Assembly: GCA_019448385.1 (NCBI GenBank)
Contig: JAGTXO010000003.1
Span: forward strand, 1,550,001 to 1,614,000
From: Diacronema lutheri
Taxonomy: Eukaryota; Haptophyta; Pavlovophyceae; Pavlovales; Pavlovaceae
DNA: 64,000 bases
Direction of reading: 5' to 3'
A model generated the notes under the pieces. That model was given only the letters and a program-made list of their open reading frames with translations, did not search any database and was not told the DNA's origin. A program made the position numbers and the translations under genes. The number at the start of each line of letters is the position of its first letter. Position 1 is the first letter of the stretch. Below are positions 11,830-40,646 of this stretch, in pieces.

Positions 11830-14300
11830 TCACTCTTCCTTTGCGTGCTGCCCGCCGCCGGGCGGGGCCGCGCGGCCCGCTTCGACTGCGGGCCGAGCGG
11901 CCCCCGCTGGGCGCGCAGCTGCGGCAGGCGGCGGCGGTGCGAGCGGAGGGAGCGAGCAGAGGCGTTGAGCCATCGAGCCCGACCAGAGCGAGTCGGGCGG
12001 GAGCACCTCCTGCTTGATCACGAGCGTGAGCGCCGTGATCGCGCAGCCAGCGCTCAGCGTGCTGCCCGCCTGCGCGAGCGAGCGCGGACCGACGCACACG
12101 ACGCCCGCGCCGACGCGCACGCGCCGGTGGCGCATGACGCCGTGGTCGACGACGTGCGCGAAGAGCAGCACGCCGTCCGCGACGACCGCGCCCTCGCCGA
12201 TCTCGAGCTGCGTGAGCTCGGCGGGCGTGGGCGCATCGATATAAGCGTGGAGTGGCGCGTCGACGCGCGCGCCGAGCAGGCGCCATGCGCACGCGGCGAA
12301 CGCGGTGCCGCCGATGAGGTGCATGGGTAGCGCGGCGTGTAGCAGGCCGAGCAGTTGCCACGCGCACACGTGCTCAGACGCAAGCGCGTGCTCGCCCTCG
12401 AAGCGCACAGCCGCGCCGACGCGCACGAGCAGCGCGACGGCGAGCACGGCGGCCACAGAGGCCGCGTACACGCATAGCATGCCGCCCGCAGCACCGGGCA
12501 GCGCGACGAGGGCGGCCGCGAGACCGCGCTCCGCCGCCGCGCGGCTGAGCGCCTCCGCGGCCATCGCCGTGCCGACCAGGTTGGGCAGCGACGCGACGAG
12601 GAGCGTGAGCTGGCCTGCGCACGCGCTGAGCAGCGCGAGCGCGCGCAGTCGCAGCGCGGCGCGGCGCTCGGCGCGCCCGTCCGCGTCGGCGGCGCGCTCG
12701 TGCGCGCGCCCGGCCCGCCGCTTGGACAGCGCCTCGAGCGCCTCGAAGTGCGCCTGCACGCCGCAGCCGACGAGCCGCGCGGGCGAGCCGACGATCGTGC
12801 TGGCGCGCAGCACGCGCTCGCCGCTCGGCACGGCGGTCAGCGAGCCGATGGTGGCGCCGCGCTCGAGGCGCGCACCGGAGAGGACGTGCGAGAACTCGGC
12901 GACGAGCACGCGCGCGCCCACGACCACCGCCTGCCGGTGGACGAGCGCGCCGCGCGCGCGCGGGCTGGCCGTGGGCGCGCGCGCGAGGCCGGCGGGTGCG
13001 CCACCATCGCGTCGCTCGCCGTCGACGTCCGGCTCGGCGTCGGCGCCGGACGCGGCGAGCGCCTCAGCGTCGGCGAGCTCGTCCGCCGCGCGAGAGGGCA
13101 GCGGCGTGAACGCGTGCCCGAGCCACGCGCCATCGCCCACGCTGACGAGGTCTGCGTCGGCGCCAACGGCGAGGCCGCCAACAAACGCGCGCACGCCGAT
13201 GCGCGCGCCAAGGGCGCGGTACGTGGCGCGCGCGAACGCGGCGGAGCCGGCCGAGCCGAGCGCCGCGGCAAAGTGCGGCGAGAGGAGCAGAGCGTCCACC
13301 GCCCACGCCGCCGCGCGCGCGCCGTGCCCCTCGCGCGCGGCGCCGGCCCCCACGCGGCCGACGAGCGCGCGCTTCGCGAGCACGCAGAGGGCGACGAAAG
13401 ATAGGGGCGCGATCGACGCGCCGAGCGCCCACGCGCCGAGCGAGCCGGGCAGCGCGCGCGCGAGCGCGAGCGACGGCGCGAGCGACGTGCCGAGCACGCT
13501 GAAGACGGCGCACGCGCCCATCGCGTGCGCGGCGGCGGCGACCGCGCCGCCGCCCGACGGCGCGCGCGCCGAGCAGTGCGCGCGCGCCTCGGGCGCGGCG
13601 TCGGCGCCCAGCGCGCTGTCGAGCAGCTGCGCGGGCGCGCCGGCCGCGTGCGCGCCCGCCGGCACGCCGCCGCGCCCGCCGAGGACGTGCGACAGCGGCG
13701 CTACGGACGCGCGCGCGCCAACGACCGCGCCGGCGGACAGCACGCTGCCCGGCCCGACCGCCGCGTGCGCGCCTACGACGACCGTGTCGAAGCGGATGTG
13801 GCCACGCGTCCACGTGTGGCAGACGACGGCAACATCGCGCCCGAGCGATGCGCCCTCGCCCACCTCGAGGAGCTCGGGCTCGGATACGGCCGCCGTCTCC
13901 ACGACGGCGCCGCGGCCGACGCGCGCGCCGAAGAGCTTCAAGGCCAGCGCGCACGCGGGCGAGCCGCGCAGCAGCAGGAGCGGGACGGTGGCGGCGTGCA
14001 GCAGGCGCTGGGCGAGCCACCAGCGAGCGAACGGCGCCGACCAGATCGCCAGGCACTCGCCGGGCACCGCGCGCGCGCACACGAGCCGGCGGAGCGCGGC
14101 GCACGCGACGATCACGACAACGCTATTCATCAAGACGGCCGCGGGTAGCAGGAGGAGCAGCGTGCGCAGCGGCACGCGCGCGGCGAGGCGGATGAGCGCG
14201 TGCAGCAGCGGCACGAACGTCGCCGCGTGCGCGAGCCACGCGAGGCACACGCACGCCGCCTGCACGCACAGCCGCGCGAGTGGTGGCAGCGGCGGCGCAA
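11830..14300 (-). other. NRPS part: membrane tail with three beta-helix blocks
   Basis: Residues about 6727-7549. Several membrane segments (LCVQAACVCLAWLAHAATF, LLLLLPAAVLMNSVVVIVAC) alternate with three hexapeptide-repeat blocks: one around LLEVGEGASLGRDVAVVCHT and VVVGAHAAVGPGSVLSAGAV, one around LVSVGDGAWLGHAFTPL and VVVGARVLVAEFSHVLSGAR, and one around LTQLEIGEGAVVADGVLLFA and VRVGAGVVCVGPRSLAQAGS. This matches the NRPS terminal domain family (TIGR02353) found in epsilon-poly-lysine synthetase and fungal NRPS-like proteins. Inferred role: membrane-bound acyl/aminoacyl transfer and release. Confidence 0.75.
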
Positions 14301-14458
14301 TGGGCACCGCGTCGCTCGGCGCGCCGCCCGGCGCACCGGGCGGTGCGAAGCGCGCGCGCAGCGCCGCACGCTCGGCGGCGGCGGCGGCGGCGGCGACGGC
14401 GGCGGAGGCGGCGGCCGCGGCGGCGGCGGTGGCGGTGCCACCTGCGCGGTCGCAATCT

Positions 14459-14492
<34 letters not shown>

Positions 14493-17400
14493 TGCCGCCG
14501 CCACCGCAGCCGCCGGCGGCTGTCGAGGCAAGCAGCCGGCGCGCGCTCGCATCCGCGCGCCCGTCCGCGCCGCGCGCGGCCGCCGCGCGCTCGAGCGCGA
14601 GAAGAAGCCGCGCGCCGAGCTCGCGCACCGTGTCGGCGCCGGCGATGTCGACGAGATCGAGCTGCAGCTCGTCCGGCTCGAACTGCCGGCGCATCGCCGA
14701 GAGCAGCTGCATGCGCTGAAACGAGTCCGCACCCGCGCGCTCGGTGAGGGAATCGGTCGGCCCGATCGGCGGCGCGTCCGCGGGCAGCTCCGCGTTGACC
14801 AGCTCAAGCAGCGCGCGCTCGAGCGCGGTGCGCGCGGCCGCGCCGCGCGCGCGCGCGCGCGCGCCGTCGCGCACGTTGTCCGCCGTGCGCGCCGTGATGG
14901 CCGTGCTGTCCGCAACGTCGTCGCGCGTCTCGCGCGCGCGCGCCGAGCGGATACGCACGAACGCCCCGGGCATCAGCTGGCCGCACGCGCCCTCCACTTG
15001 GCACATGGCGGCGTACGCGCGGTCGGCGCCGCGCGCGGCGCCCAGACCGCGTGGCCACGCGATCGACGCGTCGTCGTCATCGTCGCTCGCGCTCGCGCTC
15101 GCGCTTGCGCGCGCGGCGTCACGCGCCAGCGCGCGGCGCGGCGCCGGCCACGGCTGCGTGAGCTGCACAGATGCGACGTACATGTGGCCGACAGCGCCGA
15201 GTGGGACGGGTCGGCGCGAGCCGTCGAGCACGTAGATGCACGAGCCGGCGAGCACCGTGCCGACGGACTCCACCGCGTACGCACGCGAGGCGAGCGCGTC
15301 GAGCTCAGCGGCCGCGTCGACGGCGGCGACGAGCGACGCGTGTGGAGCGCGCCAGCCAAGCGTCAGCCGCACGCGCGCGCGCGCCCACTCGTGCGTGGCG
15401 CGCAGGCTCGGCCGGCCGTTGCACAGCGCCGTGCGCACGTCGGGCAGCGACGCCGGCGTGAGCTCCTCGAGCGCCGCCGCGGGCAGCGCGAGCGCGGACG
15501 CGCGCACGCGCGCGAGCGCGTGCGCGAGCGCGCGCGCGGCGGGTGCAACATCGGCGCCTCGCGCCGCGCTCGCGCTCAGCTCGGCGAGCTGCTCGGCGCA
15601 GAGCGCGAGCGTGGCGCCGGCCGAAAGCGCGGCGGCCGCAACCTCCACAAACTCGACGGACGGCCACGACGCGCCGAGCGCGACAACGTGCGCGCCGCGC
15701 GAGTCGCCGCGCTCGGCGGCCGCGGCCGCGGCGGGCTGCGCGTGCAGCGCGAGCAGGTCGGCGACGTGGCCGGCCGCGTTGGCGAGCGCAGCGTGGGTTG
15801 AGGCGCGCGCCGGCGCGGCCGACGGCGCCGCGCCGGCCGGCGGCTCCTCGCCGCGGTGCGCCAGGATGAGAGCAGCTGCGCGCGGCGCGGGCACGACCGC
15901 GCGCGCGTGCGGGTCGGAGAGCCGAGGCGCCGGCGCGTCCGCATCGCGCGCGTCGCGCCCGTCCCAAAAGTCGATGAGCTCGCCGGCCGCGGTGAGCACG
16001 AGCATGCGCGGCTCAGCGCCGACTTCGCCCGCCGGAGCGCCTGCGGCCGCGGCCGTCCGCTCGGCCGCGCCCTCCTGCGCGACGCGCAGCGCGAGGCGCA
16101 CGGTTGGCGCGCAGCGCTGTGCGCCCGCGCACGGCGCAAGGCCGAGAAGCGCGCAGCCCGCTCGCAGCACGCCGAGCAGGCCGACAAGGATCGCAGCGCC
16201 GTCGACCGCGCAGAGCGCCACCACGGCGGGCGGCGGCTCGACGGCCGCGTTGTTGTCGTCGCCGTCGTCGCCGCCGTCGCCGTCGCCGCCGTCGCCGGCG
16301 GCGCACGCCGCCGCGCCCGCGCCCGTGCCCGCGCCCGCGGCGCGGAGGCGCGCGGCGGCGGCGAGCCGTGCACGCACAGCAGCGGCGAGACGGTTGGCGC
16401 GGTCGTCGAGCTGCGCCCAGCTGAGCGTGGGCGCGCTCTCGCGCATCGCGCACAGCGCGAGGCCCTCGCCGCACTCTGCCGGCGCGTCCCTGCCGCCGTC
16501 GCCGCCGCCGTCGCCGCCGGGCGCCGGCTCGGCGAGGCGCGCGCGCGGCCGCGCCCACGGCAGCGTCTCATGCCCGCACGCCGCTGCGTCGCGCGGGCGG
16601 TGCGCGGCGGCGGCGATGGCAACCTCGTCGGCCGTCGAAGGCAGCGGCTGGCGGATGAGCGCGCACGATGGCTGCTCGACGATCGCACGCAGCAGCGCCG
16701 TGTAATGCGCGGCCATCTGCGCAAGGACGGTCGCATCGTAACTGTCACGGCTGAACTCGAAAGCGCCCGCCGCGCTGCCGTCGGCGAGCAGCGCGAGCTC
16801 GAGCTTGAGCTCGACGTCAAACTCGTTGCGCGCGGACGGCGCCGCGAGCGGCGAGGCGAGCAGCTCGGTGCCCGTCGAGTATCGCCACGTCTCGACGTTG
16901 AAATACGCGAGCCGGCCCCTGCGCCGGCCCTGGCGCACGTGGCGGAGCACCGACGCGAAGAAGGGCGACGCGTGCTCGAGGCCGAAGAGCACGGCCTCGT
17001 GCACGCTCGCGAGGAGCATCGCAAAGTCGGTGCTGCCACCGTCGATCCGCGCGTCGACGCAGAGCAGGTTGGTGATGAAGCCGACGGTGATCGCCTCGTC
17101 ATCCGTGCGGCTGTTGCATGCGATCAGGCAACCGATCGGCCCGCCGTCCACGCTCTCGTACCGCGAGAGGAGCGCGAGGAACGCGCAGAGCAGCGTCGTG
17201 TTCAGCGTGCAGCCCGCGCGCGCGCCGAGCGCGCGCACCGCGCCGAGCAGCGGCGCGCCAATCTGCACGGGCGCGTGGCCGCTCAAAGGGCGCGCCGCGG
17301 GCGCGCCGCGCCCGTCGGCGCAGCCGTCGCCGCCGCCGTCGCCGCCGTCGCCGCCGGCGCCGTCGGCAGGCGGCAGCGCGTGCGCGAGGCGTAAATCGGG

Positions 17401-20400
17401 CAGCGGCACGCCTCGCGTGCCGTAGCGCGCACGCCACGCGTCCCACTCGTCGCCAAAGCCGGCCGCCATCGCTTGCTCCTGCCTGCACACGAAGCAGTCG
17501 TACCCGCCGGGCGGCGCGCCGAGCGCGCTCAGCGCGGCGGACACGGATGCGCCCGCGCGCAGCGCGCGGTAGAGCGGCCAAAGCTCGTCAAAGAGGATCG
17601 CGACCGAGCCGCCATCGTCGATGAGGTGGTGCAGGTTAAGCAGCAGCACGTGCTCGCGCGCGCCCAGCCGCAGAATGGACGCGGTGAAGAGGCGCGGCGG
17701 CCACGCAAAGGCGTCCATCGGCCGCAAAGCCTCGTCGACGAGCGCGCGCGCGAGCAGCGCGTGCGCGCGCTCCGACGGCACTGCGCCACCCTCCGCGGAC
17801 GCGGCGCGCGCCTCCACCTCGAGGTCGCGCACGCACAGCCACGCTGCGTCCGCGCCGTCGTGCGCCGGCGCGGGCGCCTGCCGCTGGAAGAGCGTGCGTC
17901 GATCAAAGCTCGTGCGCAACTGGCCGTGCCGCGCAACGAGCGCGCGCAGCGCGGCGCCGAGTGCGGCCGCGTCGAGCTCGCCGCACAGTCGCGTGGGCAC
18001 AATGTAGCCGTACGTCGGCTCGGCGGTCAGCTCGTGTGCGCTGAGAAGCGTGGTCAGCAGGAAGAACTGCTGCAGCGACGGCGGCGAGACGCTCACGCCG
18101 CCGGCCACGACGAGCGCGCTCGCGGGCGGCGATGCGGGCGATGCGCTGGGCGAGGCGCGCGCGCCGCGCACCGCCCAGCCCGAGTCGCGCAGCTGCGCGG
18201 CGGGAGGCGGCGTCGCGAGCATCGGCGCGCTCCCCTCCTCCCAGCTCGCCGCGCGCGGCGGCGCGCGCGGCGTGCCGCGCGCAGGGCTGTCGGGCGGCGC
18301 GAGGCCGCACAGCTGCGCGCGCGGCGGCGCAGGCGAGCGGCGCGCGGGCGAGCCGAGGGGCGTGTGCGACCGCATGCTCGTCTCGCCACGGAGCTCGCGC
18401 GCGTGCTGCTCGTGCACGTGCGCGGCAATTGCGGACGCGGTGCCCAGATGACCGCGCAGCACATCGCTCAGGCCGAGCGCGGTGCCGCAGCGCGCGTTGA
18501 GCAGGCGGACGAGCGAGACGACGCCGAGCGAATCGACGCCGAGCTGCACGAGCGTGCGCTCGACCCGCCGCACTGCCGCCGGCGAGGGCGCGGCGACCGG
18601 TGGCGACGGCTCGGCGCCGTCGGGCGCGGAGCGCGCGTGCGGCTCGTGTGCGTCGCCGCCGCCGCCACCGCCGCCGCCGCCACTGCCGCCGCCGCCACCA
18701 TCGTCGTCGCCGTCGCGCGCGGCAGCGGCGGCGAGAGCGTCGGCGAGGAGCTGCGCGCCGTCCACGTCGGCGGGCAGCACCTGCCGCACGCACTCGAGCA
18801 CGAGCCGCACGGCCTCCGCCCGGCTGCGCACGAGCGGCCGGCGCGCTGGCGCACCCGCGCCGCCCTCGCCGGCGTCCATGTCGTGTCGCACGCCGCGCTC
18901 GTCGCCATCGGGCGGGTCACGCGCGCGCGGCCATGGCAGCTCGATGCGATGCCACTCGACGCTCAGCGCGTCAGCGTCCGCCGCCGCCTCGAGGCTGCGC
19001 GCCGGGCCACCAGGCGAGGCGGCAGCGCCGTTCTCGGCATGGCCCGCATGCGCTGTGAAGGGCGCGCCAGCCGCGTGCGTCGCCGCCGCTTTCTGCGCTG
19101 CTGCGGCTGCGGGCCCAGTGGGCGGCGGCGCTGACTCGGCGGGCGGCGGCTCGGGCGCGCTCTCGAGGATGAGGTGCACGTTGGTGCCTCCGAAGCCAAA
19201 GCTGGACAGGCCGATGCGCAGCGGCGGCCGCTCCGGCGCGCGCGTTCGCCGACCGGCCGTGCGCTCGACGCGCACGCCCGCGGCGGCGAGTGCATCGAGC
19301 GCAACGTCGAACGCCTCCGCCGCGTCCTCATCGCACGCCTGCAGCCCGACGAGCGCGAGCGGCGGCGCGCCGTGCGGGTGCGGCGGCAAGATGTGCCGAA
19401 CCAGCCCGAGCAGCGTCGCGTGCGGGCCGAGCTCGACGAGCGCCGAGCAGCGCAGCTCGCCGCGCAGCAACCGGCGTGCGGCGCCCTCAAAGCGCACCGG
19501 CTCGAGCAGGTGGCGCACCCAGTGCTCGACGAGGTGCGGCGCGCTCCACGCAGTCGCGCCATCGGCCGCGACGTCGTCGCCCGGCGCGGCAAGGCACGTG
19601 ACGAACAGCGGCGCGTCGGCGGCGCACGCTGCGAACCCCTCGGCCACCGACGCGTCCGCCGCCTCAGCCGGCGCACGCAGCCGCGCGCGCCGCACGTGCT
19701 CGCGGAACGTGCCGACGATCGGCGCGAGAAGCGGCGAGTGGAATGCGTGCGAGACGTGCAGCGCGCGGTGCTTTGCGCCCATCGCCACGACCGTCGCGTC
19801 CACCGCCGCGCGCTCACCAGAGATGGTGACGGCCGCGGGCCCGTTGACCGCGGCGATCGTCGCGCGCCCCTCCGCGCACGTGTCGGCGAGCGCGGCGCGA
19901 ACGCGCGCCTCGGGCGCGAAGACGGCGGCCATCGCACCGACGCCCTCGGGCAGCGCGGCGACGAGCTGGCTGCGCAGCGCGACGAGCCTCGCGCCATCCT
20001 CGACCGACATGACGCCCGCGACGACGGCCGCGACGTACTCGCCGAGCGAATGGCCGCACGCGGCGCTCGGACAAAGGCCGCGGCTCGCGAGCAGCTTGGC
20101 AAGGGCAAACTCAAGAGCGAAGAGGGCGGGCTGCGCGTACAGCGTCGAGGCGAGCGCGCTCGCGCCCGCCGCCTCGTCGCGCACCGCGTCCTCGTCGGCC
20201 AACGCAGCGAGCGCGCCCGACTCGGCGCGTGCGCTCACCGCGCCCGCCGCGCCCGCCGCGCCCGCCGCGCCCATCGCGCCCGCCGCGCGCGCGCGGCCGT
20301 AGCCGAGCACGTCCGCCACGCGCCGCGGCAGGCCGGCGGCGGCGAAGGCGTCATCGCAGCGCCGCACCGCTTCGCGGAAGACGGGCTCGCGCGCATGCAG

Positions 20401-23400: not shown

Positions 23401-26400
23401 GTTCGGCGGCGCGGGCGGCGCGTCGCTCTCCGCCATCACACGCGCGTCCACCTCGCCCTCCGCCATCGCATACGCCTCCACCTCGCCCTCCGCCGGCTGC
23501 GAGCCCGCCGTGAGTACGAGCAGCGGTGGCGGCAGAGGCCCGCGCCCACCCTCCGCGTTGCGCGCCATCGCCACGAGCGCGTGCACGAGCGCAAGCGCGT
23601 CGCCAAGCGCGCCAAGCGCGCGCTCGGCGCACGCGCCGCCGCCGTCGTCTGACGCGTCGATGTCCGGCGTCGCGGCGTCGTCGAGCGGCCGCGCGAACAC
23701 GACACCGGCCCATGGCTCTGACGAGAGCAGCGCGATAAGCGCATCGCCGCCCATCGCGCACGCCTCCGCCGGACCAACGACCACGCCGCTCGCTGCGTAC
23801 ACGGCCGCCCATGCCGCCTCGGCGTCGCCGCACGCCACAGCGTCCGGCGCGCGTCCGCCCTTCGCCGCGCCGTCCGCCGAGCCGCACGCCGGCGCGGAGC
23901 CGGCGAGCAGCTCAGACATGCGCAGCGCATCCTCGCCGCCCTGCTCTCCGCGCGCGGCGGCGGCAACGGCGGCGGCTGGCGGCGCGTGCGTGCGCGCGCT
24001 GCCACCAATCTGCAGCAGCCGCGCGCAAGGGCGAGCGGCTGTCACCGCGCGCGCCAGTGTCGGCGCCGCAAGCCGGCGCCACTCGACGGCCCACAGCGAG
24101 CCCTCGTCCCAGCTGCGCGTTGCGCCATCCGGCCGCGTCTCGTCGGCCGCGTTGCTCGTCGCGAGCTGAGGGCCGCGCGCGCCCGCGCCCGTCGACTCGG
24201 CGTCGGCCGCCCACGGCACGTGCGCGGCGCGCTCAGGCGCGAGCGGCGCGCGGGGCAGCAGCTCGGCGACGGGGAAGGGCGGCCACGGGAAGGCTTGAGG
24301 CGCGCGCTCGGGCGCGTCCTCGGTCGCCGCCTCCCGCGCGCGCGCCGCGCGCGCTCTCTCGTCGAGCTCGCGAGCGAAGGCGCCGTCGCCCGCGCGCGCG
24401 GTGCGGCGCGCGCGCGCGCGCGGCGCGCCGCGGACGAGCGCGTGCGCGTTTGTGCCGCCAAAGCCAAAGGACGAGACGCCGCCGATGAGCGGCGCGTCGG
24501 CGTCGGCGCGAGTGGACGCGGCGTCCGCGCGCGGCGCGGGCAGCGGCGTGAGCTCCTTGGGCAGGCGCACGTCGAAGCCGTCGAGCGGCAGGGCAGCGTG
24601 GACCGCGTCGAGCCCGCCGATCGGCGGCGCCGCGCGCTCGCCGAGCGCGAGGAGGAGCTTGAGCATGCCCGCGGCGCCGGCGGCGCCCTCGAGGTGGCCG
24701 ATCGCCGTCTTGGCCGTGCCTACCACCAGCGCGCCCGCAAAAGACGCCGCCGGCCTCGCGTGCGCGCCAAAGAGCTCGCGCAGCGCGCCGACTTCAATTT
24801 GGTCGCCGAGGCGCGTGGCTGTGCCATGCGCCTCGATCAGATCGACGTCGGCGGGCTCGAGGGACGCATCGGCGAGGGCGGCGCGCAGGACGGCTTGCTG
24901 CGCGGGCCCGTTCGGCGCGGTCAGCGTCGCCGACCGCCCGTCCTGGTTCGTCGCGCAGCCGAGAAGCTCGCCGAGCGGAGGCGGCATCCCGGCGGCGCGC
25001 TCGCCCGCGCGCGTGAGCACGAGCGCGCACGCGCCCTCGCCGCGCACGTACCCGTCGGCGGACGCGTCGAAGGTGGCGTTGCGCCCGCGGCGCGAGAGCA
25101 TGCCCGCGCGGGAGAAGGCGACGAAGAGATGCGGCGTCAGGCAGAGATTCACGCCGCCCACGAGCGCAACGTCGCACGCGCGCGCGCGCAGGTGCGCGGA
25201 CGCGACGTCGACGGCGACGAGCGACGACGAGCACGCGGTGTCGATCGTGATCGCGGGGCCGGTGAGGCCCAGCGCAAAGGCGATGCGGCTCGACACGAGC
25301 GACGCGGAGAAGCCCGAGTGCCCCGTCCCGCTGTACGCGCCCGCGTCCATCCGCGCGGCGACGAGCGGCCAATCGTTCGAGCAGACGCCGATGTACACGC
25401 CCACCCGCTTGCCGCGCAGCTCGTCGCGCGTGTAGCCGGCGGTGCGCAGCGCGGCCCAACCGACGTCGAGCATCAGGCGCTGCTTTGGATCCATGCACGC
25501 CGCCTCGCGCGCGCTGATGCCCCACGCGCGCGCGTCGAAGCGCTCGGCGCCGTCGACGAAGGCGCCGTGCCGCGCGAGGTCGCAACCGCCGCCCCAGCCG
25601 TCCGCGCGCGCGTCGTCCTCGCCGCCGCCGCACGCAGCGCGCTCAGCCGCGCAGCCGTCGCCGCCGTCGGCCGGCGGCGCGCACAGCGCGGCGTGGTCCC
25701 ACCTGTCGCGTGGCACGTGCCCGATGGCGTGAGCGCCCGCCGCGAGCATCGCCCAGAAGCGCTCGAACGAGGAGCCGCAGCCCGGCAGGAGCGAGGCCGT
25801 GCCGACGATCTCGAGCCGCGCGCGCGCGCCTCCGGCGCGCGGATCGCCGGCGCGCGACGCGCCGAGCGCGCGCGCCGGCCGACCGGCGCCGACGGCCGCG
25901 AGGTGCGCTGCGAGCGCGCGCGGCGTTGGAAAGTCGAAGACGGCCGAGCCCGGCAGGGGCACGCGCAGCCTGCCGCCAAGGAGCCGCCCAAACTCGACGG
26001 AGGCGAGCGAGTCGATGCCCGCGCTCACGAGCGACTCGTCAAAGGACGGAGGCACAGCGCCGCCCGTCACCTCGAGCACCACCTCGCCGATCGTGCGCAG
26101 GAGCGCCGCCTCGCCGCCGTCGGAGGCGCCGCGCGCCGCGCCGACCGCGCCGTCGTCCACGCCGTCGTCCGCGTGGCGCGCGGCCGCGCGGCAGCGCTCC
26201 CGCGTGAGCGCGCCCTTGGGCGTCGCGCCGCTCGCGCCGTACGCGCGCCAATCGACGACGGGGAAGGCGCACACGACCGCCTCGTCGAGCGGCGCGCCGA
26301 GCGCGACGGCGCTCGCGCTCGCGTACGGCCGCCGCGCGCAGGGCGGCCGCTGCGCGCGCATGAGCGCACCGAGCGCGCCAAGCGCCGCGGCGGGCGCGAG

Positions 26401-29400
26401 CATGGCCATGCCCTGCGCGCGCCAGTGCGCAGCGAAGCGCGCGCCGAGCGAGTGCGCCATCCCCGCGTCGGCCCAGAGCCCCCAGCGCACCGTCAGCGCC
26501 GCGTCGCCGCGCAGCCGGCGCCACTCGCCGAGCGCGTCCTGGAAGGCGTTCGCCGCCGCGTAGTGCGTCAGCTGCGCGTAGCCGAGGAGGGCGTACACCG
26601 ACGACCACTGCACAAAGTGGCGCGGCGGCACGCGCAGCGCTGCGCACGCGTCGTGCAGCGCGGCCGAGCCGCGCACCTTTGGCGCGAGCACGCGCGAGAA
26701 GGCGCGCCAGCTCAGGTCGGCCAGGCGGCCGTCGGCAAGCACGCCCGCGAGGTGGAAGACGGCGTGCACGCGCGCGCCCGCGGCGCGCAGCGCGGCGCGC
26801 ACCGCCGCCGCGTCGGCCACGTCCACCGCCGCGTCGTCGACGCGCACGCCGAGCGCGCGCGCGGCGGCGACGGCGCGCTCGGCCGCGCAGTCACCCCCGC
26901 CGTCGTGTGCACCGCGCCGCGAGAGGAGCACGAGGTGGCGCGCGCCGCGCGCGCACAGCCAAGCGAGCAGCGCGCAGCCCACGCCGCCGCGCGCGCCCGT
27001 CACGACGTACGCGCCGTCGGGCCGCAGCTCGGGCGGTCGGGCGCTGAGCGCGGCGGCGCGCGCGGCACGCGGCAACGGGCGCAGCCGTGGCGCGTGCCAC
27101 GCACCACGGCGCACGGCCCATTCGTCGTCGTCGTCCGCGCCGTTCACGCGGTCGCTCGACACGACGGCGGCGAGCGCGAGCGGCGCGGCCCAGCCGGCGC
27201 ATCGCTCCGCGCTCGCGTCGGGGCAGAGGTCGAGCAGGCGGAGGCGCGCCGCGCCGCGCGCGTCGCCCGCTTCCGCGCCAAACGCGTCGCCCAGCTCGCG
27301 GCGGAGCGCGCGTGCCGCGCCCCACATGGCCGCACCGGCGGGCGATACGCGCTCGTCCTCGGGCAGCCGGTGCGCGCCCCTCGTGCACACGAGCACCGAT
27401 GCGGACTGCGGGCGAGCGCGCTCGAGTGCGCGCGCGACGGCGAGCAGAGGGCGCAGGGTGGCCTCCGCCTCGGCCGCGAGGCAGGACGCTTCGCCACGCG
27501 TGCCGTCGGCCGGTGTGCACGCGTCGCCGGCAAGTTCGGCGCCGACGTCGCCCTCGTCGCCGCCCGCCGCGCCGCCGCTCTCGCCGTCGCTCTCGCCCTC
27601 GCCCGCGTCCTCGGCGTCGTCGAGCTCGTCCGCGTCGCGCGCGTGCGCTGCGCTCGCCGGCGCGTGCGCGCGGGCCACGCCGCCCGCCACGCGCGCTCGC
27701 CGTTCCTCGGCGCGCGACGCTCGCGTCGGTAGCGAGCGCGCGCCGTTCGAAGCGCCGCCCGCAACGGGCGCAGACGCGGGCCATGCGCACACGACGCACG
27801 CGCGCTGCGCGCTCGGCGCGGCGCGGCCGTCATCCGCCGAGAGCGCGCGGAGCAGCGCTTGCGCAAGCGCCTCGTCGCGCGCATCGTCCGTCGCTGCGTC
27901 TGCGTCCTCGCCGCCCCCGCGCGCGTACCCCGGTGGCGCGCCGTCGCCGCCGCGCGCCGCTCCGAGCGCCTCGCCGCACGGCACGAAGCGGACGGTCGCG
28001 CCAGCCAATTGACCGAGCCGCTGGAGCAGCGCCGCTTCGAAGCTTGCCGACGCGCGCGCGCCGTGGGCCCAGCCGACGACCACGACGAGTGCTCGAGCGT
28101 CGGACCCGCCCGGCCCGCACGTCTTGGGCGACGCGCCCGGCGGCGCGACGGGCGCCCACTCGACAACGTGCAGAGCCTCGTGCACGAAGCGCTCGTCCAC
28201 TTGCGCGCCGTGCACGTCGGCGCGCTGCACGCCATCGTCCGCACGCGCGGCCGCGCGCGCGCCCGCGCCGGCTTCGCCGCCGAGCGCGCGGACGTTGTCG
28301 CCGAGCTGGCCGTGCGCCGGTGCGTGCGCGTGCGGCTCGGCGGGCTGGGCGTAGAGCGCGCGCACCTCATCCTTGCGCACCTTGCCCGTCGCGGTGAGCG
28401 GCAACGCGTCCACCCACTGCACGAGCGCCGGCAGCTTGTAGCGCGCGAGCCGCGTGCCGCAGTAGGCGAGCAGCTCGGCGCGCGTCGGCCGCGCAGCCCC
28501 AGGCCGCAGCACGAGCGCCGCCATGACGAGCTCGCCGAGTGAGCCGCCGAGGTCGGGCACGCCGACGACGGCGACGAGCGCGACCGCCGGGTGCGAGCCG
28601 ACGACCGCCTCCACCTCGGCCGCGTGCACGTTCTCGCCGCCGCACACGACGACGTCCTTGGCGCGGTCGACGATCGTGACCGCGCCGCCGCGCCCGACCG
28701 TCGCGAGGTCGCCCGTGCGCAACCAGCCGCCGGTCCAGACGGCCGCACTCGCGAGCGCGTCGGCGCGGTAGGCGTGAGCGCCCGACACGGAGCGCACCAC
28801 CACCTCGCCCACGCTCGCGCCGTCCGCCGGTACCTCGCGCTCCGCGCCACCGCCGCCGCCACCGCCGCCGCCGCCGCCGCCGCGACCGCGTCCGCCGCGC
28901 AGCACGCGCACCGACACGCCGCAAAAGGCGCGCCCGACGCCGAGCGCGTACGCGACGCGCCCCGCGTCGGGCCGCGCGCGCACGTCCGCGGACGGCATCG
29001 CCGTGCAGATCTTGCCGCACGTCTCGGTCATCCCGTAGCTGACGAAGAAGTCGCCCCGCGCGCCCGCCGCCGACGGCCCGGCGCCGGGCGCGCGCGGCGC
29101 GGGCAGCAGCGTGAGGGTGGCCGCACAGACGGCACGGCGCGCGAGGCCCGAGCCGCCGCACGAGAGGAGGCGCAGCGCGCGCAGCTCGCCGCCTACCGCC
29201 GCGCAGCGCTCAGCGTTGCCGCCGGCCTCGGCCGCGCGCGCGCGCTGCGCGAGCACGAGCGCGAGCATCGTCGAAGCCACGTTGGTCACCGTCACGCCGT
29301 GCGAATCGATGGCGCAGAGCGCGGCGCGCGCGTCCCACGCGCGCAGCGTGACGTGCGGCGCGTGCACCGCCGTCGCGCAGAAGATGCCGAACGCGTCGAC

Positions 29401-32400
29401 GAGGTGGAAGGCGGGCGCAAAGTGGCCCCACGCGTCCGCCGCGCCGAATTCAAACTCGGCGCTCGCGCACGCCGCGTGCGCGCTCACGTGCGCGTGGGTG
29501 AGCGCGACGCCCTTGGCGGCACCCGACGTGCCCGACGTGAAGTAGAGCTCGTACGGCCGCGCGCGCGCGTCGCGCAGCGCGGCGGGCGCGCGCGCGGCGA
29601 GCGAGCCGGCGCCGACGGCGGGCGGCGCCGCGCCCTCGTGCAACGCGGCGTCGTATGTCAGCGTCCGGGCCGTCGCCGCGCCTGCGCGCGGCGATGGCCC
29701 GTCGTGCGGCTCGGCGTGCGGCGTGGCGCACGCGGCGGGCACACCGTCAAGCCACACGATCGCGTCGGGCAGCGGCGGCGGCGGCGCGCCCGCAAACTCG
29801 GCACCATCGCCGTAGAGCGCGCCGAGCAGGGCCGTCGCCGCCTCGGCATGCGCGAGGACGACCGCGGGAGGCGCGGCGCGGAGCTGGGCGCGCAGCTCGA
29901 CGGCGGTGAGTCGCGGGTTGAGGTTGAGCACCGCGAGCCGCGCGAGCGCCGCGGCGAAGTGCGCTTCGACCACCTCCGGTGCATTCGCGCACAGCAGCGC
30001 AACGCGCGCGGGCTCAGCGCGCCCGAGCGCGCGCGCGGGGAAGATGGCGCCGGGGCGCGCGTGCGCCGCGGCCAGTCCGGCGGCCGAGCCGGTAGCGTAC
30101 GGCGCCTCCCGCCACGCGCCATCGTCCGCAGGCGCGCCCACCTCATCCTCCTCATCCTCCAACGCGGCGCGCATGCAGCCGACGAGCGGGTTGCACGGCT
30201 TCCAGCCGCCGTCCGCGCCGTCGAGCGCTAAGCCATCCGCGCCGCGCGCGGCGTGCCGCGCGGCGGCGAGCGCGCAAAAGCTGCCGAGCGCGACGGCGCG
30301 GTCGTGCAGCACCGCGTACGTCCACTGCCGGTCGCCGCTCGCGCAGACGGCGGCGAGGGCGAATGGGCTCTCCAACGCCGCGCGCGCGAGGAGACGCCAC
30401 GCGTCTGCTTCGGCGGGCGGCGGCAGCCGCGCGGAGCGGAGCGGGCGGAAGAGCGCGCTGCTCGGCACGGCATCGGGCGGCAGAGCCTCGCGCCACGCGA
30501 CGAGCGGACGCGCACGGCGCGACGCGGCGGCCGGCGTGCGCTCGCGCAGCGCGACGAGCAGCGCGCAGAACGCGCCGCTGCCGCCCGCGGACGCGACGGC
30601 GTCGGCGAGTGCGTCCGCGCTCGCGCAGCCGAGCACGCGGTGGCCGCGCGCCGCGGCGCGCACCCGGCAAAGCGCCCGCTCGAGCCGGCCATCGCCCTCT
30701 CCGGCGCGCTCGCCGTGTGCGCCGTCGTCGGGATCGGCGCGGCGCGCAACGGGCACGATGGCGATGATGGGGGCGAGCTCGGGCGAAGCGAGCGCACACA
30801 CCGGATCGGCCGCGCGCCGTCGCCAGCTGAGCGGCGCCGTCGCCAGCTCCGCCAGCAGCTCGGCCTCCGTGACGACGAGCAGCACGGCCGAAAGGCGTGG
30901 CGCCTCACGTGCGCGGTCGGTCGGTGGACGCTGTGCGCCGAGCGCGCGCGCGACGCCGAGCGCGAGCGCGAGCGCGGGCACGTGCGTGGCGTTCGGGCAG
31001 AGCAGATGGCCGGGCAAGAAGCACACACCACACGGCACGCGCAGCGCCGCCGCGACGCGCCGCGCGCCGTCGCCGCCGCCAACGACGACCGCGGTCGCCA
31101 CGCCCGCCGGCGCAAGCGCCGTGCGCTCGAGGCAGCGCGCGAGCTGCGCCGGGCGCAGCGGCGGCGCGCGCGGTGCTCGCGCGCGCTGCTGCACGCGAGG
31201 CGCGCCGCGCGCGTCGCCAGCGGCCGCCGTCGCCGGCGCCGCCATCGCCGCCACGCCCTCCGCCGCGCGCTCGGGCTCGCACGGCGGTTCGCGCGGCTCG
31301 CGCGGCGGCGCGCCCGCGCCGTCGGCGCGCGGCGCGACGCCGAGCGCCTTGCACAGCGCGCGCGCAAAGGCGCCGCACTCGGCGGTGATCGGCGTCGCCG
31401 AGATGTTCGCCGCGGGCACGCGCAGGTCGGGGTGCACGTGGAAGACGCGCGCCGCGTCCAGATGACGGAGGGCGCGCCTCACGCACGTCGGGCGCTCGAG
31501 CGCGCAGCCGAGCACGAGCGCTGCGTCTGCGCTCGGCGGCGCGGCGCGCGCGACACGCGGCTGCGGCGAGGAACCATGCGCGCCGCCATCGCCCTCCTCG
31601 CCGCTGCTCTCGCCCCCGTCAGATGCGCCCACGTCCGCTGCGCGCGCGCCGCGGTCTTGCACCGCGCTGCACACGCCGCGCGCGTCTGACGACGTCCACA
31701 CGGTCGCGCCAAGCGCGCGCGCGAGCGCACCGACCGCGCCGCCCTCGCACGCGTCGCGCGCGTGCACCCCTACGACGATGAGCGGCGCGCGCGCCGCGGA
31801 CAGCACGGCCGCCGCTTCGCAAACATCCGCGACGTTCGCACGCGGCCGCGCGAGCGCCGGCACGTCGGCGGCGAGCCTCCAAGCTCGCGCGCCGTCGAGC
31901 GGCGCAGACGGCGGGGCCGCACCGGCGGCTGTCGGCAGTGGGACCTCGCGCGCTGCGGCAAGCGCGAGCGTCGCGGCGTGCACGACGACGAGCGTCGGCG
32001 CGCGCGCGCGCACCGCGGCGGCGGCCGCTGCGACGATGGCCGCAGCGCACGAGGACGCCGACGCCAACGTTGACAAATCGTCGCCGGCCGTTGGCGCCTC
32101 GGCGGCGCTCGGCGCGCTCGCGCGCGCGGCGACGGCGGCTGCGTGCGGCGACAGCGCCGCGCCGCACGGCGCGCCGTCCGCCGCGCCATCGCCGCCGTGC
32201 GCTCTGCGCTCCGCGCCGCACGCGTCGCCGCCATCGCCGCGCGCGGGCGACGTCGTCGGCGTGTGCGCCACGTCGGGCGGAGGCGCGGTAAGGTCCGCGC
32301 TCCATGCGCAGACCGCGCAGAGTGCCGCGACGCGCTCATCAAACAGCCTGACGCCCAGGCTGCACGCGCCGCTCGGCGCTCGGCGATGCGCACCGCGCGG

Positions 32401-34479
32401 CGCGCCATCGCCGTCGCCGTCGACGGCGAGCACAATGACGACAGCCGCTCGCGCGCACGCGGCGCGCGACACCGCGCCAGCCGCCGCCGCCCACGCGCGC
32501 GCCGCGCGCACTTCGGCGGCGCGCGCGCCGTCCCAGCGCCACTCGTCGGCACGTGCACGCAAGGCGGCGTCGGGCGCGGGGTAGCGCAGCAGCAGCAACG
32601 CCGCGTGCCCCTCCGCGCCGAGCGCGGCACCGACCACCTCGCACGAAGCCGCCGCGTGCGCGCGCGCGCGCGCACGCCAGAGCGTCGTGCACTCCACGCC
32701 GTCGAGCTGCACCGCACGGACGGCGGGCGTCGCCGCGGCAACGCGCGCGCGCGCGCTCGACGGCACGCCGCACGCGAAGAGCGCGCGCACGCCCGCACGC
32801 CGCGCCGCGCTGACAAGCGTCGAGTCTCGCGCGAGCATCGCGCACGCATCGCGGGACGATGCGGCGTACGCCTCCCGCTGCTCGGGCTGGGCGGAAGACG
32901 CGCGCATAGCGGGTGGCGTCCGCGCGCGGCTCGTGCGCACGGCGATCACGGTGACGTGCGCGCGCGCAGTCGTGCTGCCGCGCGCGCCGTCGGCCCAGGC
33001 CGCTCGGCCGGCGAGCGCGCACGCCACGGCGGCGAGCGTCTCGTCAGAGCGCGCGCGCGCGTCGTCGGCCGTTTGCGCCGTGTCCGCGCGCACGTCGATC
33101 CAACGCGCGCCCGCAGCGGCGCACTGCGCGCGCAGCACGGCGGCTGCATCGTCGCCCTCGCCCTCGCCCTCGCCCTCGCCCTCGCCCTCGCCCTCGCCCT
33201 CGCCCTCGCCCTCGCCCTCGCCCTCGCCCTCGCCCTCAATGCCGCTCGTGCCTGCGTCGTCGTCGCCGCCGTCGCCGCCGATGCCGCCGTCGAGTCGGTG
33301 GCCGCCGTCGGGTCGGTGGCCGCGATTGCCGCCGGCGTCAAGCGCACGCCGGTTGCCGGCAGCAAGGTGCACGAGTAGGACGAGGGGGGTCGCCGCGCGG
33401 CGGAGCACTGCGCCGAGCGCGCCGCCCAGCTCGGCGAGCGGCGCACCGTCGCCGATCCCGATTACGAGCAATGGCGGACGGTCGGCGCGCGCACCGGCCG
33501 AGCGCGCGGGCGCGGGCGCGGCCGCGCTCGCGACGGCCGCGACGAGTGCGCTGGCGCTGCGCGTGTGCGCGGCGGCGGTCGCGTACCAACGCGCGAGCGG
33601 CGCGTCAATGTGCAGCTCGATCGCAGGCGCGGCGAGCAGCGCCGCGGCGACTGTGCCGAAGAGCTCGCCGGCGGGCGCGAAAACGTCGCCGCGCGGCGCG
33701 TGCTCGCTAAACTGCCCCTCATCGCCGCGCGGCGCGCGCATGCTGGTCGGCCCCTCGTCGCCGCGCGGCGGACGCGAGTGCCGCGCGTCGGCGGCATGGC
33801 GCGCGCGCGCCGCCGTGATGAGCAGCAGGTGCGTTGGTCTGCACGCCGCCTCGCGCAACGCGCGCGACAGTTCGGGCGCGCGCACCAGCGCGAGCGCTGC
33901 GTCGGGCGTGCGCGGAGGTGGCGCGCGCGCGAGCGGCCCGACGGCGCCCCAGCCGTCGAGCAGATCGGCGGGCAGCTGCACAAGCACGGGCCCGGCGGGA
34001 TGCGCGCGCGCAAGGCATGCCGCGCGCGCCAGCTCGGGCAGCAGCTCGTCCACCCGCGAGAGCGCGACGCTCGCCTTGAGCGCGGGCGCGAGGAGCGCGC
34101 CGCCCTCGGCGAGGCCCTCGCGCGCAAAGCGGTGAGCGGGCTCGCCGTCCAGGCCAAGGGCGGGCGCGGTCTCGAGCAAGACGAGTATCGGCGCGGCGTC
34201 GAGCAGCGCGCACGCGAGCGCGGGCGCGAGCTCCGCCACGCTTGCCCCCCCGCGGGCGCTCAGGCAGACGAGCGCCGCACGCGACGATGCGAGCGCGCCC
34301 GCGAGCGCGGCTGCCGCGCGCTCATCGCGCACGGGGAGCGCGGCCGGGAGCGCGTCCACAAGGGCGGCCCACAGGCGTGCCGAGTGCCCGGCGGGCACGC
34401 CGACCACCACCGTCACCTCCGCGCTGCGTAGCGCCGACGCGACGAGCGCTGATGCGTGCGCAGGGCTGCCCGTGCGCAT
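11830..34479 (-). CDS. Giant hybrid PKS/NRPS with membrane tail, 7549 residues
   Basis: A single uninterrupted 22,650-nt frame runs from ATG 34479, with no introns although its neighbours have them. Order of parts by residue: degenerate ThDP-enzyme-like region (15-1245); acyl-CoA ligase (1360-2045, Lys2033); KR (Tyr2640); ACP (Ser2824); KS (Cys3083, His3218, His3262); KR (Tyr3982); ACP (Ser4145); KS with Cys4407 but Asn4568 and Asn4609; AT (Ser4811) lying before the KS end motif (about 5091-5103); ACP (Ser5317); condensation domain (His5617-His5618); degenerate adenylation domain; carrier (Ser6586); and a tail of membrane segments plus three beta-helix blocks to 7549. No DH, ER, thioesterase or reductase is seen. 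Inferred chemistry: an acyl starter is activated, extended once or twice with ketoreduction, condensed with an amine or alcohol, and handed to the membrane tail. The product is unknown. Confidence 0.9.
14590..16590 (-). other. NRPS part: degenerate adenylation domain and carrier
   Basis: LSWAQLDDRANRLAAAVRAR, ALCAVDGAAILVGLLGVLRAGCALL and YVLDGSRRPVPLGAVGHMYV trace the adenylation fold. The ATP loop (TSGSTGxPKG), the YxTGD motif and the C-terminal NGK lysine are all absent, so it should not activate an amino acid. The carrier that follows is intact: TERAGADSFQRMQLLSAMRR with Ser6586. Its substrate would have to come from elsewhere. Confidence 0.8.
16640..18105 (-). other. NRPS part: condensation domain
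   Basis: Begins VSVSPPSLQQFFLL. The catalytic HHxxxDG motif is LNLHHLIDDGGSVAILFDEL (His5617-His5618). Later TVGFITNLLCVDARI and ARNEFDVELKLELAL match the late C-domain motifs. It should form an amide or ester between the polyketide on ACP3 and a nucleophile on the following carrier. Confidence 0.85.
18390..18845 (-). other. PKS part: ACP3 with long internal insert
   Basis: A carrier helix AVRLVLECVRQVLPADVD is separated from the attachment site LGVDSLGVVSLVRLLNARCG (Ser5317) by a Gly/Asp-rich insert of roughly 60 residues. The insert is coded by GCC/GTC-rich repeats and is unusual inside a small four-helix domain. Confidence 0.75.
19170..20465 (-). other. PKS part: AT embedded before the KS2 end motif
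   Basis: AT motifs: LFGGQGAQHVAMGRAL, CGHSLGEYVAAVVAGVMS (Ser4811) and HVSHAFHSPLL, where HAFH is the malonyl-CoA type signature. After the AT comes LRIGLSSFGFGGTNVHLILE (19159-19218), which is the C-terminal closing motif of a KS and is missing from its normal place before the AT. The AT therefore interrupts the KS2 fold. Confidence 0.88.
20480..21815 (-). other. PKS part: KS2, both catalytic His replaced
   Basis: Residues about 4222-4667. VDCACASAAVAID keeps the nucleophile Cys4407. The HGTGT site reads EANASGTPLGD (Asn4568) and the second His site reads AVGNSEAAAAV (Asn4609). Condensation needs these His, so this is probably a non-elongating KS that only passes or proofreads the chain. 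A Gly/Asp-rich insert of roughly 25 residues lies between the Cys and the first Asn. Confidence 0.88.
21930..24110 (-). other. PKS part: KR2 and ACP2
   Basis: The structural half starts at SLWAVEWRRL. The catalytic half has YAITGGKGALGLVAARWLAE, HAAGVLADATL, VFSSIASTLGSAGQ and NYAAANAALD (Tyr3982). ACP2 has GLDSLALVELR (Ser4145). All expected residues are present. Confidence 0.88.
24430..25820 (-). other. PKS part: KS1, complete active site
   Basis: Residues about 2887-3350. DTACSSSLVAVD holds Cys3083, EAHGTATRLGD holds His3218 and IGHLEGAAGAAG holds His3262. The end motif GVSSFGFGGTNAH follows immediately, as in ordinary type I KS domains. No AT follows this KS, so malonyl loading of ACP2 must come from the later AT or from a free enzyme. 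Confidence 0.92.
25890..28180 (-). other. PKS part: KR1 and ACP1
   Basis: A KR structural half beginning near VVEWAPVAPPG is followed by the catalytic half: VVTGARGGVGCALLAWL (NADPH loop), HLAGVLADG, WSSVYALLGYAQ and HYAAANAFQD (Tyr2640). It contains an acidic insert in the linker. The ACP follows with GIDSLASVEF; Ser2824 takes the phosphopantetheine. No KS precedes this KR, so the starter may be reduced or held here before the first elongation. Confidence 0.85.
28340..30405 (-). other. PKS part: acyl-CoA ligase (loading) domain
   Basis: Residues about 1360-2045. The AMP/ATP loop is YFTSGTSGAAKGVALTHAHV, followed by FVSYGMTETCGK, then WLRTGDLATVGRGG and DRAKDVVVCGGENVHAAEVE. The catalytic Lys is in TATGKVRKDE (Lys2033). 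All core motifs of an active fatty-acyl-AMP/CoA ligase are present, so this is the probable starter-activating domain. A run of 13 Gly is inserted before the hinge. Confidence 0.88.
30730..34430 (-). other. PKS part: degenerate ThDP-enzyme-like region
   Basis: Residues 15-1245. The N-terminus reads VTVVVGVPAGHSARLWAALV, then LPVRDERAAAALAGAL, then APILVLLETAP and GPVLVQLPADLLDG. This is the N-domain path of acetolactate-synthase-like enzymes, with the activating Glu in RDERA. A second copy-like stretch has GVRALFACGVPSS. A middle-domain-like stretch has ARAPLIVVGVHARDACEGG. A C-domain-like stretch has VPALALALGVARALG then AELLAELATA. The GDG...N cofactor motif of the C-domain is not recognisable, so catalysis is doubtful. 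It is broken up by acidic and Gly-rich inserts. Confidence 0.5.
33154..33237 (-). repeat. Hexanucleotide (GAGGGC)14 coding repeat
   Basis: Fourteen perfect 6-bp units, read as (Glu-Gly)14 in the PKS frame at residues 415-442. It is inserted in the ThDP-like region. Repeat number is likely to vary between alleles (inference). Confidence 0.95.
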
Positions 34480-34842
34480 CGTTTCGCGCGTTCTGCTTCC
34501 TTGTTTGGAGCCGAAAGCAAAGCGGGAAGGAGCTCCTTCCCCTTTGTCAGTGTGAAGGCTGGCTGACAAGTCGAGTCTCAACTCTCAACTCACACTACCG
34601 TGGTGGTCTACGGTCCACCGGCAACGCCGCCCACCCGCGCCGCCTCAACGGCATTCGCGCGCGCGTGTGGGCATCAGCCCTCTCGGGAAAAAAAACCTCT
34701 CCGAACGGACCCTCCCCCCACTGGCGACCCTTCGCGCCGCGCCGCGCGCTGCGCCCCACGTCCGATGCGATGGCGACGGGCAACGCAGCAACGCGGCGCG
34801 CGCGCGCGCCCGCCCAACCAGCGCTCCGTACCGCCTGCCGCC
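34480..34842. other. Promoter region of the giant PKS
   Basis: 363 bp between the PKS start codon and the stop of the upstream CTL gene, which reads in the same direction. AGTGTGA near 34550 pairs with TCACACT near 34591, with direct CTCAACT repeats in the loop. The frame stays open upstream of ATG 34479 to a TTG at 34581, but the acetolactate-synthase-like fold begins just after 34479. No TATA box is evident. Confidence 0.4.
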
Positions 34843-39424: not shown

Positions 39425-40646
39425 CTACTTTGTGCGCTTCGTGCGAGACCACGTGCTGACATCGTCGCGCATGATGAAATCCCAGATCACGCGCGACCAC
39501 GAGCGGTGCGTCGCGAGCGGCTCGTAAAACTCGGGCGCGAGCGCGCGTAGCGCGGGCAGATTGGACCACGCGACGAACGGGAAGTCGTGGTGCTCATTGT
39601 GGTAGCCCACGTTGAAGGTGAGCAGGTTGAGCGGGCCGTAGTACGAGTACGTCTCCTGCCCCTGCGTGAACACGTAGTGCTCGGCGATGAAATGGCCTGC
39701 GCGTGGCGACGGGTTCGCCCGTGGCGGAGCGCGAATTCGAGCGCGCGCGTGAGCGCCCCGCGCCGCCCGAGACGACGGGGCAGCCCGTGGCGGGGCGCGA
39801 CGTGTGACGGCGCGCGCGCCTGCGATGGGATGCAGGCTGCCGGCGAGCAGAAAGCACGCGACCAGGTAGCGGATCGGCGCCCATCCGTAAAAGTGGACGA
39901 GCGCGCAATTGAACACGCCCTGCACGCACGGGGCGCCCGCGGCGCGCGCGCATGCAGCTCGGGCGATCAGCGCGCGGCGCGGCGCGCGGCGGCGCGCGGC
40001 ACCGCGGGGCCGCCGCCGCGACGATCGCTCAGCGCGCCGCCGATACCTGCGCGGCGAAGTTGAGCGCGTGCATGAGCGTCGGCGTCTGCTTCTTGATGAG
40101 CATCGGCCGGAGCGCGTAGAAGAGGATCTGCGAGAGGCACCAGGCGACCTTACCGAGGCGGCCCTGAAAAATGCGCGCTTCGAGGCGCGCGGGGATGTCC
40201 GTGTCCACGCCGTCCACGCCCTGCTGCTTGTGGTGCTCGATGTGGTACTGCTTGAACGTGACGCAATACGGGACGACGATTGGCAGGTTTGCAAAGATGG
40301 CGATCAGCCGGTTGCTCTCCGGACGCTTGGCGCCGAGGTTGTGCGCGAGCTCGTGGATCGCGAGAAACAGCGCGTGCGTGATCGTCGCGCCAACCACGTA
40401 CGTCGTCGCCGCGTACACCGGCCACGACGCGGCGCGCAGCGCGACGGAGAGCGACACCTGCGCGGCGACGAGCGCGAGCACGATCCACTTGGTGCGCGGT
40501 TCGGGGCCCATCAGCTTGTTGACCTCGGGGTGCGCCTTGAGGATCGCCCTGCGCCGCGCCACGTGCGGCTCTTCCTCATTGGACCAGTAGAATCGATCGC
40601 GCGCACCGCGTGGGGCAACGCCCGCCGATGCCGCGCCTCCGCCCAT
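39425..40646 (-). CDS. DEGS1: Sphingolipid delta-4 desaturase DES1
   Basis: Exons 40047-40646, 39820-39919 and 39425-39696 (600+100+272 nt) give 323 residues, the same length as human DEGS1. The N-terminus [20 protein letters not shown] is the family lipid-desaturase N-domain. Three histidine boxes are present: [18 protein letters not shown] and [33 protein letters not shown] and [12 protein letters not shown] are almost invariant in DES1. It introduces the 4,5-trans double bond into dihydroceramide in the ER, making ceramide. The second intron (39697-39819, 123 nt) starts GC rather than GT and has no in-frame stop, so retention would add 41 residues inside the fold. Confidence 0.94.

Follow-up and report, generated by a model that had tools for sequence, protein, structure and literature searches.

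A single coding frame of 7549 residues

The stretch of DNA under study, hereafter the window, spans 64,000 nucleotides (C4:1550001-1614000) of the nuclear genome of the pavlovophyte haptophyte Diacronema lutheri. The NIVA-4/92 assembly is given as 43,502,671 bases in 103 contigs with 73.25% GC (PMC8379373); as scanned here it comprised 43,492,796 bases in 103 contigs. The minus strand carries a single open reading frame at 11830..34581, which encodes 7583 amino acids from a TTG and has its first ATG at residue 35. From this ATG (34479) to the stop the frame covers 11830..34479, or 7549 residues, and the length and limits given in the original prediction match the ORF list exactly. All residue numbers are counted from this ATG, and all features of the megasynthase lie on the minus strand.

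The frame is a real coding unit. It contains no stop in 7549 codons, where some 75 would be expected by chance at its base composition (log10 P = -33); in each of the five other frames over this stretch there are between 20 and 87. The GC-by-codon-position pattern is of coding type and persists over the full length: of 375 overlapping windows of sixty codons, 8 departed from it, and these fall in two low-complexity linkers and in the active-site region of the second KS. From these features the frame is likely to be one unspliced transcript. It could instead be expressed as several genes, or spliced, with proteins smaller than the ORF as the result, and gene-model problems for such loci are noted in a survey of algal PKSs (PMC4661987, in the text available). 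We regard this as very improbable: no stop interrupts the frame, periodicity is not lost between domains, and 45% of the coding sequences in D. lutheri consist of a single exon, according to the portion of the genome paper at hand (PMC8379373).

Several low-complexity runs occur within the frame. A (Gly-Glu)13 run lies at 33157-33234 (residues 416-441), the frame being maintained as in coding repeats; other frame-keeping runs, of the poly-Gly type, are found at residues 1867-1878, 5267-5275 and 6664-6673.

A scan of ten neighbouring ORFs led us to reject bacterial contamination as the source of the gene: one gave no family match, and among the others are genes for a TCP1 chaperonin, a choline-transporter-like protein, a sphingolipid delta-4 desaturase and Nrap. 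The haptophyte origin first proposed from the letters alone is supported, the host being D. lutheri. Beyond two lipid-related neighbours there is no sign of a biosynthetic cluster around the megasynthase.

The surroundings have features of their own. Pieces of a choline-transporter-like (SLC44/CTL type) gene lie directly upstream on the same strand (34846-36790, minus), followed by pieces of a sphingolipid delta-4 desaturase gene (39458-40592, minus), the N-terminal one of which (40050-40592) matches Lipid_DES. A DDE_Tnp_4 transposase-like open frame is found at 41345-42223 (plus), ∼7 kb from the megasynthase. On the other side, a 510-codon frame (3010-4539, plus) has two isochorismatase-domain matches, and coding stretches 2-973 and 1094-2155 (minus), whose translations both start ISGAETARDAELMDMQEWL, form a tandem gene duplication. 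Outside the window, a 2405-codon frame (C4:1444846-1452060, minus) matches chorismate-binding, three ThDP-enzyme, enolase-like and alpha/beta-hydrolase domains; it looks like the PHYLLO fusion (MenF-MenD-MenC-MenH) of phylloquinone synthesis.

Domain order and the first modules

A Pfam and NCBIfam search of the translated frame bore out the domain list of the original prediction. By Pfam the order is TPP_enzyme_N, TPP_enzyme_M, AMP-binding plus AMP-binding_C, KR, PP (carrier), KS, KR, PP, KS, AT, PP, Condensation, a weak AMP-binding and PP; behind the last PP stands a TIGR02353 tail (NCBIfam). This order supports the assignment to PKS/NRPS-type megasynthases.

The sequence was inspected for the usual catalytic motifs of the KR, AT, adenylation and carrier domains. 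An acyl ligase (AMP-binding and AMP-binding_C, residues 1484-2033, 28381..30030) retains its core motifs. It is followed by KR1 (residues 2489-2671, 26467..27015), in which the K, S, Y and N residues of the catalytic set are present, and by ACP1 (residues 2797-2860, 25900..26091), with GIDSL at 2821. KS1 (residues 2891-3353, 24421..25809) aligns unbroken, at 441.5 bits, to a KS profile built from 123 bacterial KS matches, with its Cys and both His in place; the bacterial KSs found with it are 32-45% identical. KR2 (residues 3813-4012, 22444..23043; Pfam and motifs) and ACP2 (residues ∼4105-4170, 21970..22167), with GLDSL at 4142, complete this part of the protein.

Type I PKSs have been defined by at least one KS with the Cys of DTACSSS and the His of HGTGT, plus another PKS domain, and NRPSs by A, C and PCP domains with HHxxxD in C (both PMC4661987, as far as the available text goes). 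KS1 carries DTACSS at 3080 and EAHGT at 3216, and KR, ACP and AT domains accompany it. Of the NRPS items, a C domain with HHLIDDG and the carrier Ser are present; the A domain is a weak partial match with no core motif visible. Judged by motif, the ligase, both KRs, KS1, the AT and the C domain retain active-type residues, as do four carriers. KR1 is the least explained part: it may act on a keto-bearing starter, act later or be idle.

An acyltransferase nested in a probably non-elongating ketosynthase

The second KS departs from this pattern in two ways. Its core (KS2, residues 4225-4638, 20566..21807) keeps the active-site Cys in DCACASA and has lost both catalytic His to Asn, with EANAS in place of EAHGT and GNSEA in place of GHLEG: loss of the catalytic His with retention of the Cys is the sequence pattern of a KS0. 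Since both His are lost while the Cys is kept, KS2 should not elongate, and chain transfer is the activity predicted for it. On the KS profile, KS2 covers positions 9-323 (266.0 bits) and then, 438 residues further on, positions 346-378 (24.6 bits), with the AT in between. The AT (residues 4678-5070, 19270..20448) matches Acyl_transf_1 over 2-318 of 319 positions and contains GHSLG and HAFH, the latter being a signature of malonyl type. Behind it comes the C-terminal piece of KS2 with GFGGTN (residues 5077-5109, 19153..19251), and then ACP3 (residues 5306-5355, 18415..18564), with GVDSL at 5314. The original prediction had listed a KS followed by an AT. Both domains are present as it said; the AT, however, lies within the second KS and not behind it, and this nesting and the loss of both His had been missed.

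Nesting of an AT within a KS was seen in none of 128 bacterial KS domains (119 complete, 9 partial) from 80 bacterial loci, which were chosen by likeness to KS1 and not to KS2. An AF2 model of KS2-AT has a mean pLDDT of 70.0, with the second half of KS2 and the last strand under 50; in all 26 KS rows of the input alignment the bacterial last strand is misplaced relative to that of KS2. Foldseek matched the model to ordinary KS-AT didomains. Terminal KS domains of green algae, in which the His has become Ser and the Cys is shifted (DCASASG), may have a role in release or transfer, according to the available text of PMC4661987; KS2, with its DCACASA, seems to parallel them.

Alternatively, the nested AT may not be a working unit, KS2 having been broken by insertion or rearrangement in a gene that is decaying as a whole or in part. 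Key motifs are lost in KS2, in the A domain and in the cofactor half of the head (below), and the absence of nesting from the bacterial set points the same way. A decaying gene would nonetheless have to be reconciled with a frame that runs its whole length without a stop and with coding periodicity throughout, and with an AT and a last KS2 strand that are well preserved; we think decay unlikely.

Condensation domain and membrane tail

Downstream of ACP3 lies a condensation domain (residues 5483-5938, 16666..18033) with HHLIDDG at 5617. It resembles ordinary C domains (Txo1/Txo2), the closest PDB sequence being Txo1 (E 3.4e-28), and both condensation matches of the D. lutheri genome fall in the megasynthase ORF. 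The adenylation domain that follows (residues ∼5970-6450, 15130..16572) is degenerate: its AMP-binding match is partial and borderline, at 26.8 and 30.4 bits against a cut-off of 29.9, and no core adenylation motifs were seen by eye in this region. The weak match and the missing motifs agree with the view, already put forward from the sequence, that this domain is dead. The last carrier (residues 6556-6625, 14605..14814) has GADSF at 6583.

The C-terminus is a membrane tail of the Pls/PosA type (residues 6730-7512, 11944..14292). TIGR02353 matches it with 177.7 bits (E 3.5e-52) in the protein scan, short of the NCBIfam cut-off of 423.1; in the genome scan the two matches obtained (120.7 and 56.4 bits) both lie inside the megasynthase ORF. 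Over its whole length the tail can be aligned to 15 bacterial tails, and it is identical to them at 52 of the 109 columns that are conserved in at least 85% of the 15; His7442 is invariant in all 15. Compared with PDB sequences, the tail drew chiefly Gly-linker matches, which were set aside. Hydropathy clusters at 6737-6806, 6978-7041 and 7278-7362, with an extra weak stretch at 6683-6702; hydropathy is a crude guide here because the protein is Ala-rich, and three hydrophobic stretches outside the tail also scored. Alignment and hydropathy together fit six helices in three pairs and three beta-helix segments, which is how the PosA tail is described, with three left-handed beta-helices (PMC10522769, in part). 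The poly-lysine-synthetase-like tail that had been claimed for this protein is thus upheld by profile match, alignment and hydropathy.

In bacterial genomes, tails above the TIGR02353 cut-off number 19 in 17 of 38 genomes, at least 27 in 24 of 396 and at least 26 in 26 of 398, the second and third counts being lower bounds because scoring was limited there to the best candidates of each genome. At least 70 are distinct (two being common to sets), and the frames that carry them measure 824-1707 aa. Of the five such frames scanned whole, each has an A domain (AMP-binding plus AMP-binding_C) and a carrier, and none has a KS or C domain. A fungal Pls of the order A-T-tail is also known (PMC7179176, in the text available). 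The megasynthase shares with Pls and PosA a carrier followed by a tail of three helix pairs and three beta-helix segments. In contrast to them, it is a protein of 7549 residues, its tail scores under the family cut-off and stands behind PKS and C domains, and a working A domain ahead of the carrier is lacking, the A domain being dead.

These features bear on a different reading of the C-terminal half, in which a separate adenylation enzyme loads an amino acid or amine on the last carrier, condensation with the polyketide follows in the C domain, and the tail releases the amide or repeats its formation, to give an acyl-amino-acid or acyl-oligoamide. HHLIDDG is kept in a C domain that resembles ordinary ones, the carrier Ser is present, and Pls and PosA tails polymerise amino acids (PMC10522769, PMC7179176, as far as these texts were available). 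With the in-cis A domain apparently dead, we nevertheless consider this outcome somewhat unlikely.

A head derived from a ThDP enzyme

The head begins with a domain like the Pyr domain of ThDP enzymes (residues 8-184, 33928..34458). TPP_enzyme_N matches it above the Pfam cut-off, hhalign gives 95.3% and 96.7%, the Glu of the RHE-type motif is retained (RDERA at 51-55), and the best PDB sequence match is carboxyethylarginine synthase (E 2.5e-7). Some 700 residues separate it from a segment like the ThDP-enzyme middle domain (residues ∼877-1050, 31330..31851), recognised by hhalign (82.8%), by TPP_enzyme_M at 24.0 and 29.9 bits, under the Pfam cut-off of 30.4, and by our own ThDP profile, with 17.0 bits at residues 877-939. 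Residues ∼1110-1365 (30385..31152) are a possible remnant of the cofactor (PP) domain: hhalign on residues 520-1400 runs collinearly from the middle domain into this region (50.4%), and in a multiple alignment that is weak here the GDG region of ThDP enzymes falls on VTEAEL. Neither Pfam nor our ThDP profile detected a cofactor domain with a GDG motif in the head. Taken alone, the cofactor half (residues 1060-1365) gave 0.2% in hhalign, like shuffles and four control segments, and -2.2 bits on the ThDP profile; residues 520-1400 have no PDB sequence match up to E 1. An AF2 model of residues 530-1385, made with ThDP rows, has a mean pLDDT of 54.4 and was matched by Foldseek to ThDP enzymes (best E 1e-8), which is not independent evidence because the alignment behind the model consisted of ThDP sequences.

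A second ThDP unit, suggested by eye with residues 230-545 as cofactor domain and 530-870 as a second Pyr domain, was rejected. Values in hhalign of 0.2% and 0.5% compare with maxima of 3.7% and 1.5% for ten shuffles each and with 0.1-0.3% for four unrelated controls, and the ThDP profile gave nothing convincing at either place.

With the acetolactate-synthase / 2-hydroxyacyl-CoA lyase superfamily the head shares the Pyr domain with its Glu and the middle domain; it differs from that superfamily in its long separations and in having no recognisable cofactor domain or GDG. The acetolactate-synthase-like head of the original prediction is weakened: the Pyr and middle domains alone stand out, the cofactor half being within shuffle range and without a GDG that could be found.

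Could the head still be a ThDP enzyme that makes the starter? Keto acids would then be turned into an acetohydroxy acid, which the ligase would load and whose keto group KR1 would reduce, and the presence of a KR in the loading module would be accounted for. The order head, ligase, KR1, ACP1 suits such a route, as do the Pyr domain with its Glu, the middle domain and the 50.4% match that carries on from there into the cofactor-domain region. Set against it are the shuffle-like values of the cofactor domain alone, the lack of GDG at the aligned place, the ∼700 residues between Pyr and middle domain and the absence of a PDB match to residues 520-1400, and we judge an active head decidedly improbable. 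From its sequence, we conclude that the head descends from a ThDP enzyme; ThDP chemistry is doubtful because no GDG cofactor motif was found, and use of ThDP is improbable. Most likely the head is a relic or a scaffold without ThDP catalysis.

Other PKS parts in the genome and comparison with known systems

Outside the megasynthase ORF, KS matches were found on contigs C100, C71, C37 and, weakly, C27, and AT matches on C100 and C37. On C100, a Thioesterase match stands between an ACP-KS-AT and a KR-ACP part; this is a second type I PKS locus (∼22.4-30.0 kb, minus) of at least two frames, one with ACP-KS and another with a KS end, AT, Thioesterase, KR and ACP. Two PPTase-like loci in the genome are available for carrier priming.

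Giant prymnesin PKSs (PKZILLA) exist in another haptophyte. N-terminal ligases, modules without AT and single C domains are known in algal PKSs, and one C domain without A occurs in two E. huxleyi PKSs, EhuPKS1 and EhuPKS2 (Shelest et al. 2015, PMC4661987, in the text available). Compared with the algal type I PKSs described there, the megasynthase shares an N-terminal ligase, an AT-less KS-KR-ACP module, a C domain without a working A and a terminal KS0; the ThDP-like head, the AT nested in KS2 and the Pls-type tail appear, in the available text, in the megasynthase alone. Pelagophyte PKSs offer a further likeness: those of Chrysophaeum taylorii include a left-handed beta-helix (LbH) domain, and others have an N-terminal adenylation domain. 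The AT-containing ones are single-KS, and the likeness to the LbH PKSs is drawn from their description (PMC10366177, in part). In the haptophyte Chrysochromulina tobin, the genes of a hybrid PKS-NRPS likewise include one condensation and one adenylation domain, in three ORFs on one contig as against one here; a tail or ThDP-like head is not mentioned in the available portion of its description (PMC4580454).

The D. lutheri genome paper (PMC8379373) does not use the word 'polyketide' in its main text (0 occurrences). A literature search confined to openly accessible text returned no published account of the megasynthase gene or its domain order, and none of an AT nested in a silenced KS, a Pls-type tail behind C-A-T or a ThDP-derived head. 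The protein had been called undescribed-looking: within that search this holds for the order as a whole, while single features (LbH, C without A, terminal KS0) have algal precedents. In plasmids, a search in which only close relatives are detectable gave no match to tail or head (E 1e-3 and 1e-2), and for the KS1-to-AT stretch there were 1163 matching records, none of which reached 60% identity and which are, by the names shown, ordinary bacterial PKSs. In IMG/VR, tail, KS2-AT and head had no match, close relatives again being all that is detectable.

Proposed action and significance

Taken together, the domain order and motifs suggest, with a probability that we put at roughly 45%, that the product of this nuclear gene is a type I PKS anchored in a membrane, NRPS-like toward its end and equipped for release with a domain of the Pls type; a chain would be loaded, extended once and released at the membrane. 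The ligase would load a carboxylic acid on ACP1, and KR1 would reduce a keto group if the starter carries one. KS1 would add one malonyl unit, leaving the chain on ACP2, whose malonyl loading would fall to the AT nested in KS2 or to a separate AT; further AT matches exist on C100 and C37, so a separate AT could serve ACP2 and the role of the nested one is not fixed. KR2 would then yield a beta-hydroxyacyl thioester, and KS2, without elongating, would shift the chain via its Cys to ACP3. The C domain and last carrier would pass it on, no amino acid being selected in cis, and the tail would transfer it, at the membrane, to an acceptor with an amine or hydroxyl group. Such a release would parallel the amide-bond formation at the membrane that is proposed for the Pls/PosA tail, and a lipoamide is a reasonable guess at the product.

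It is possible, as a more tentative proposal, that the megasynthase represents a new topology: a malonyl AT placed within a silenced KS fold, the resulting KS0-AT unit loading the upstream module and passing the chain on; a Pls-type membrane domain repurposed for the release of polyketides onto membrane acceptors; and a ThDP-derived head. If true, an AT nested in a silenced KS would widen the known arrangements of these domains. Apart from those of the megasynthase, no condensation domain and no TIGR02353-type tail was found in the genome; removal of this single gene, combined with lipid and metabolite profiling, could for that reason reveal the product. How polyketide chains exit from algal megasynthases is poorly known, and the presence of a membrane tail of the Pls type behind a PKS suggests that the chain is passed directly to an acceptor there. 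Should the topology proposed here recur in other pavlovophytes, it would define a distinct class of membrane-releasing PKS.
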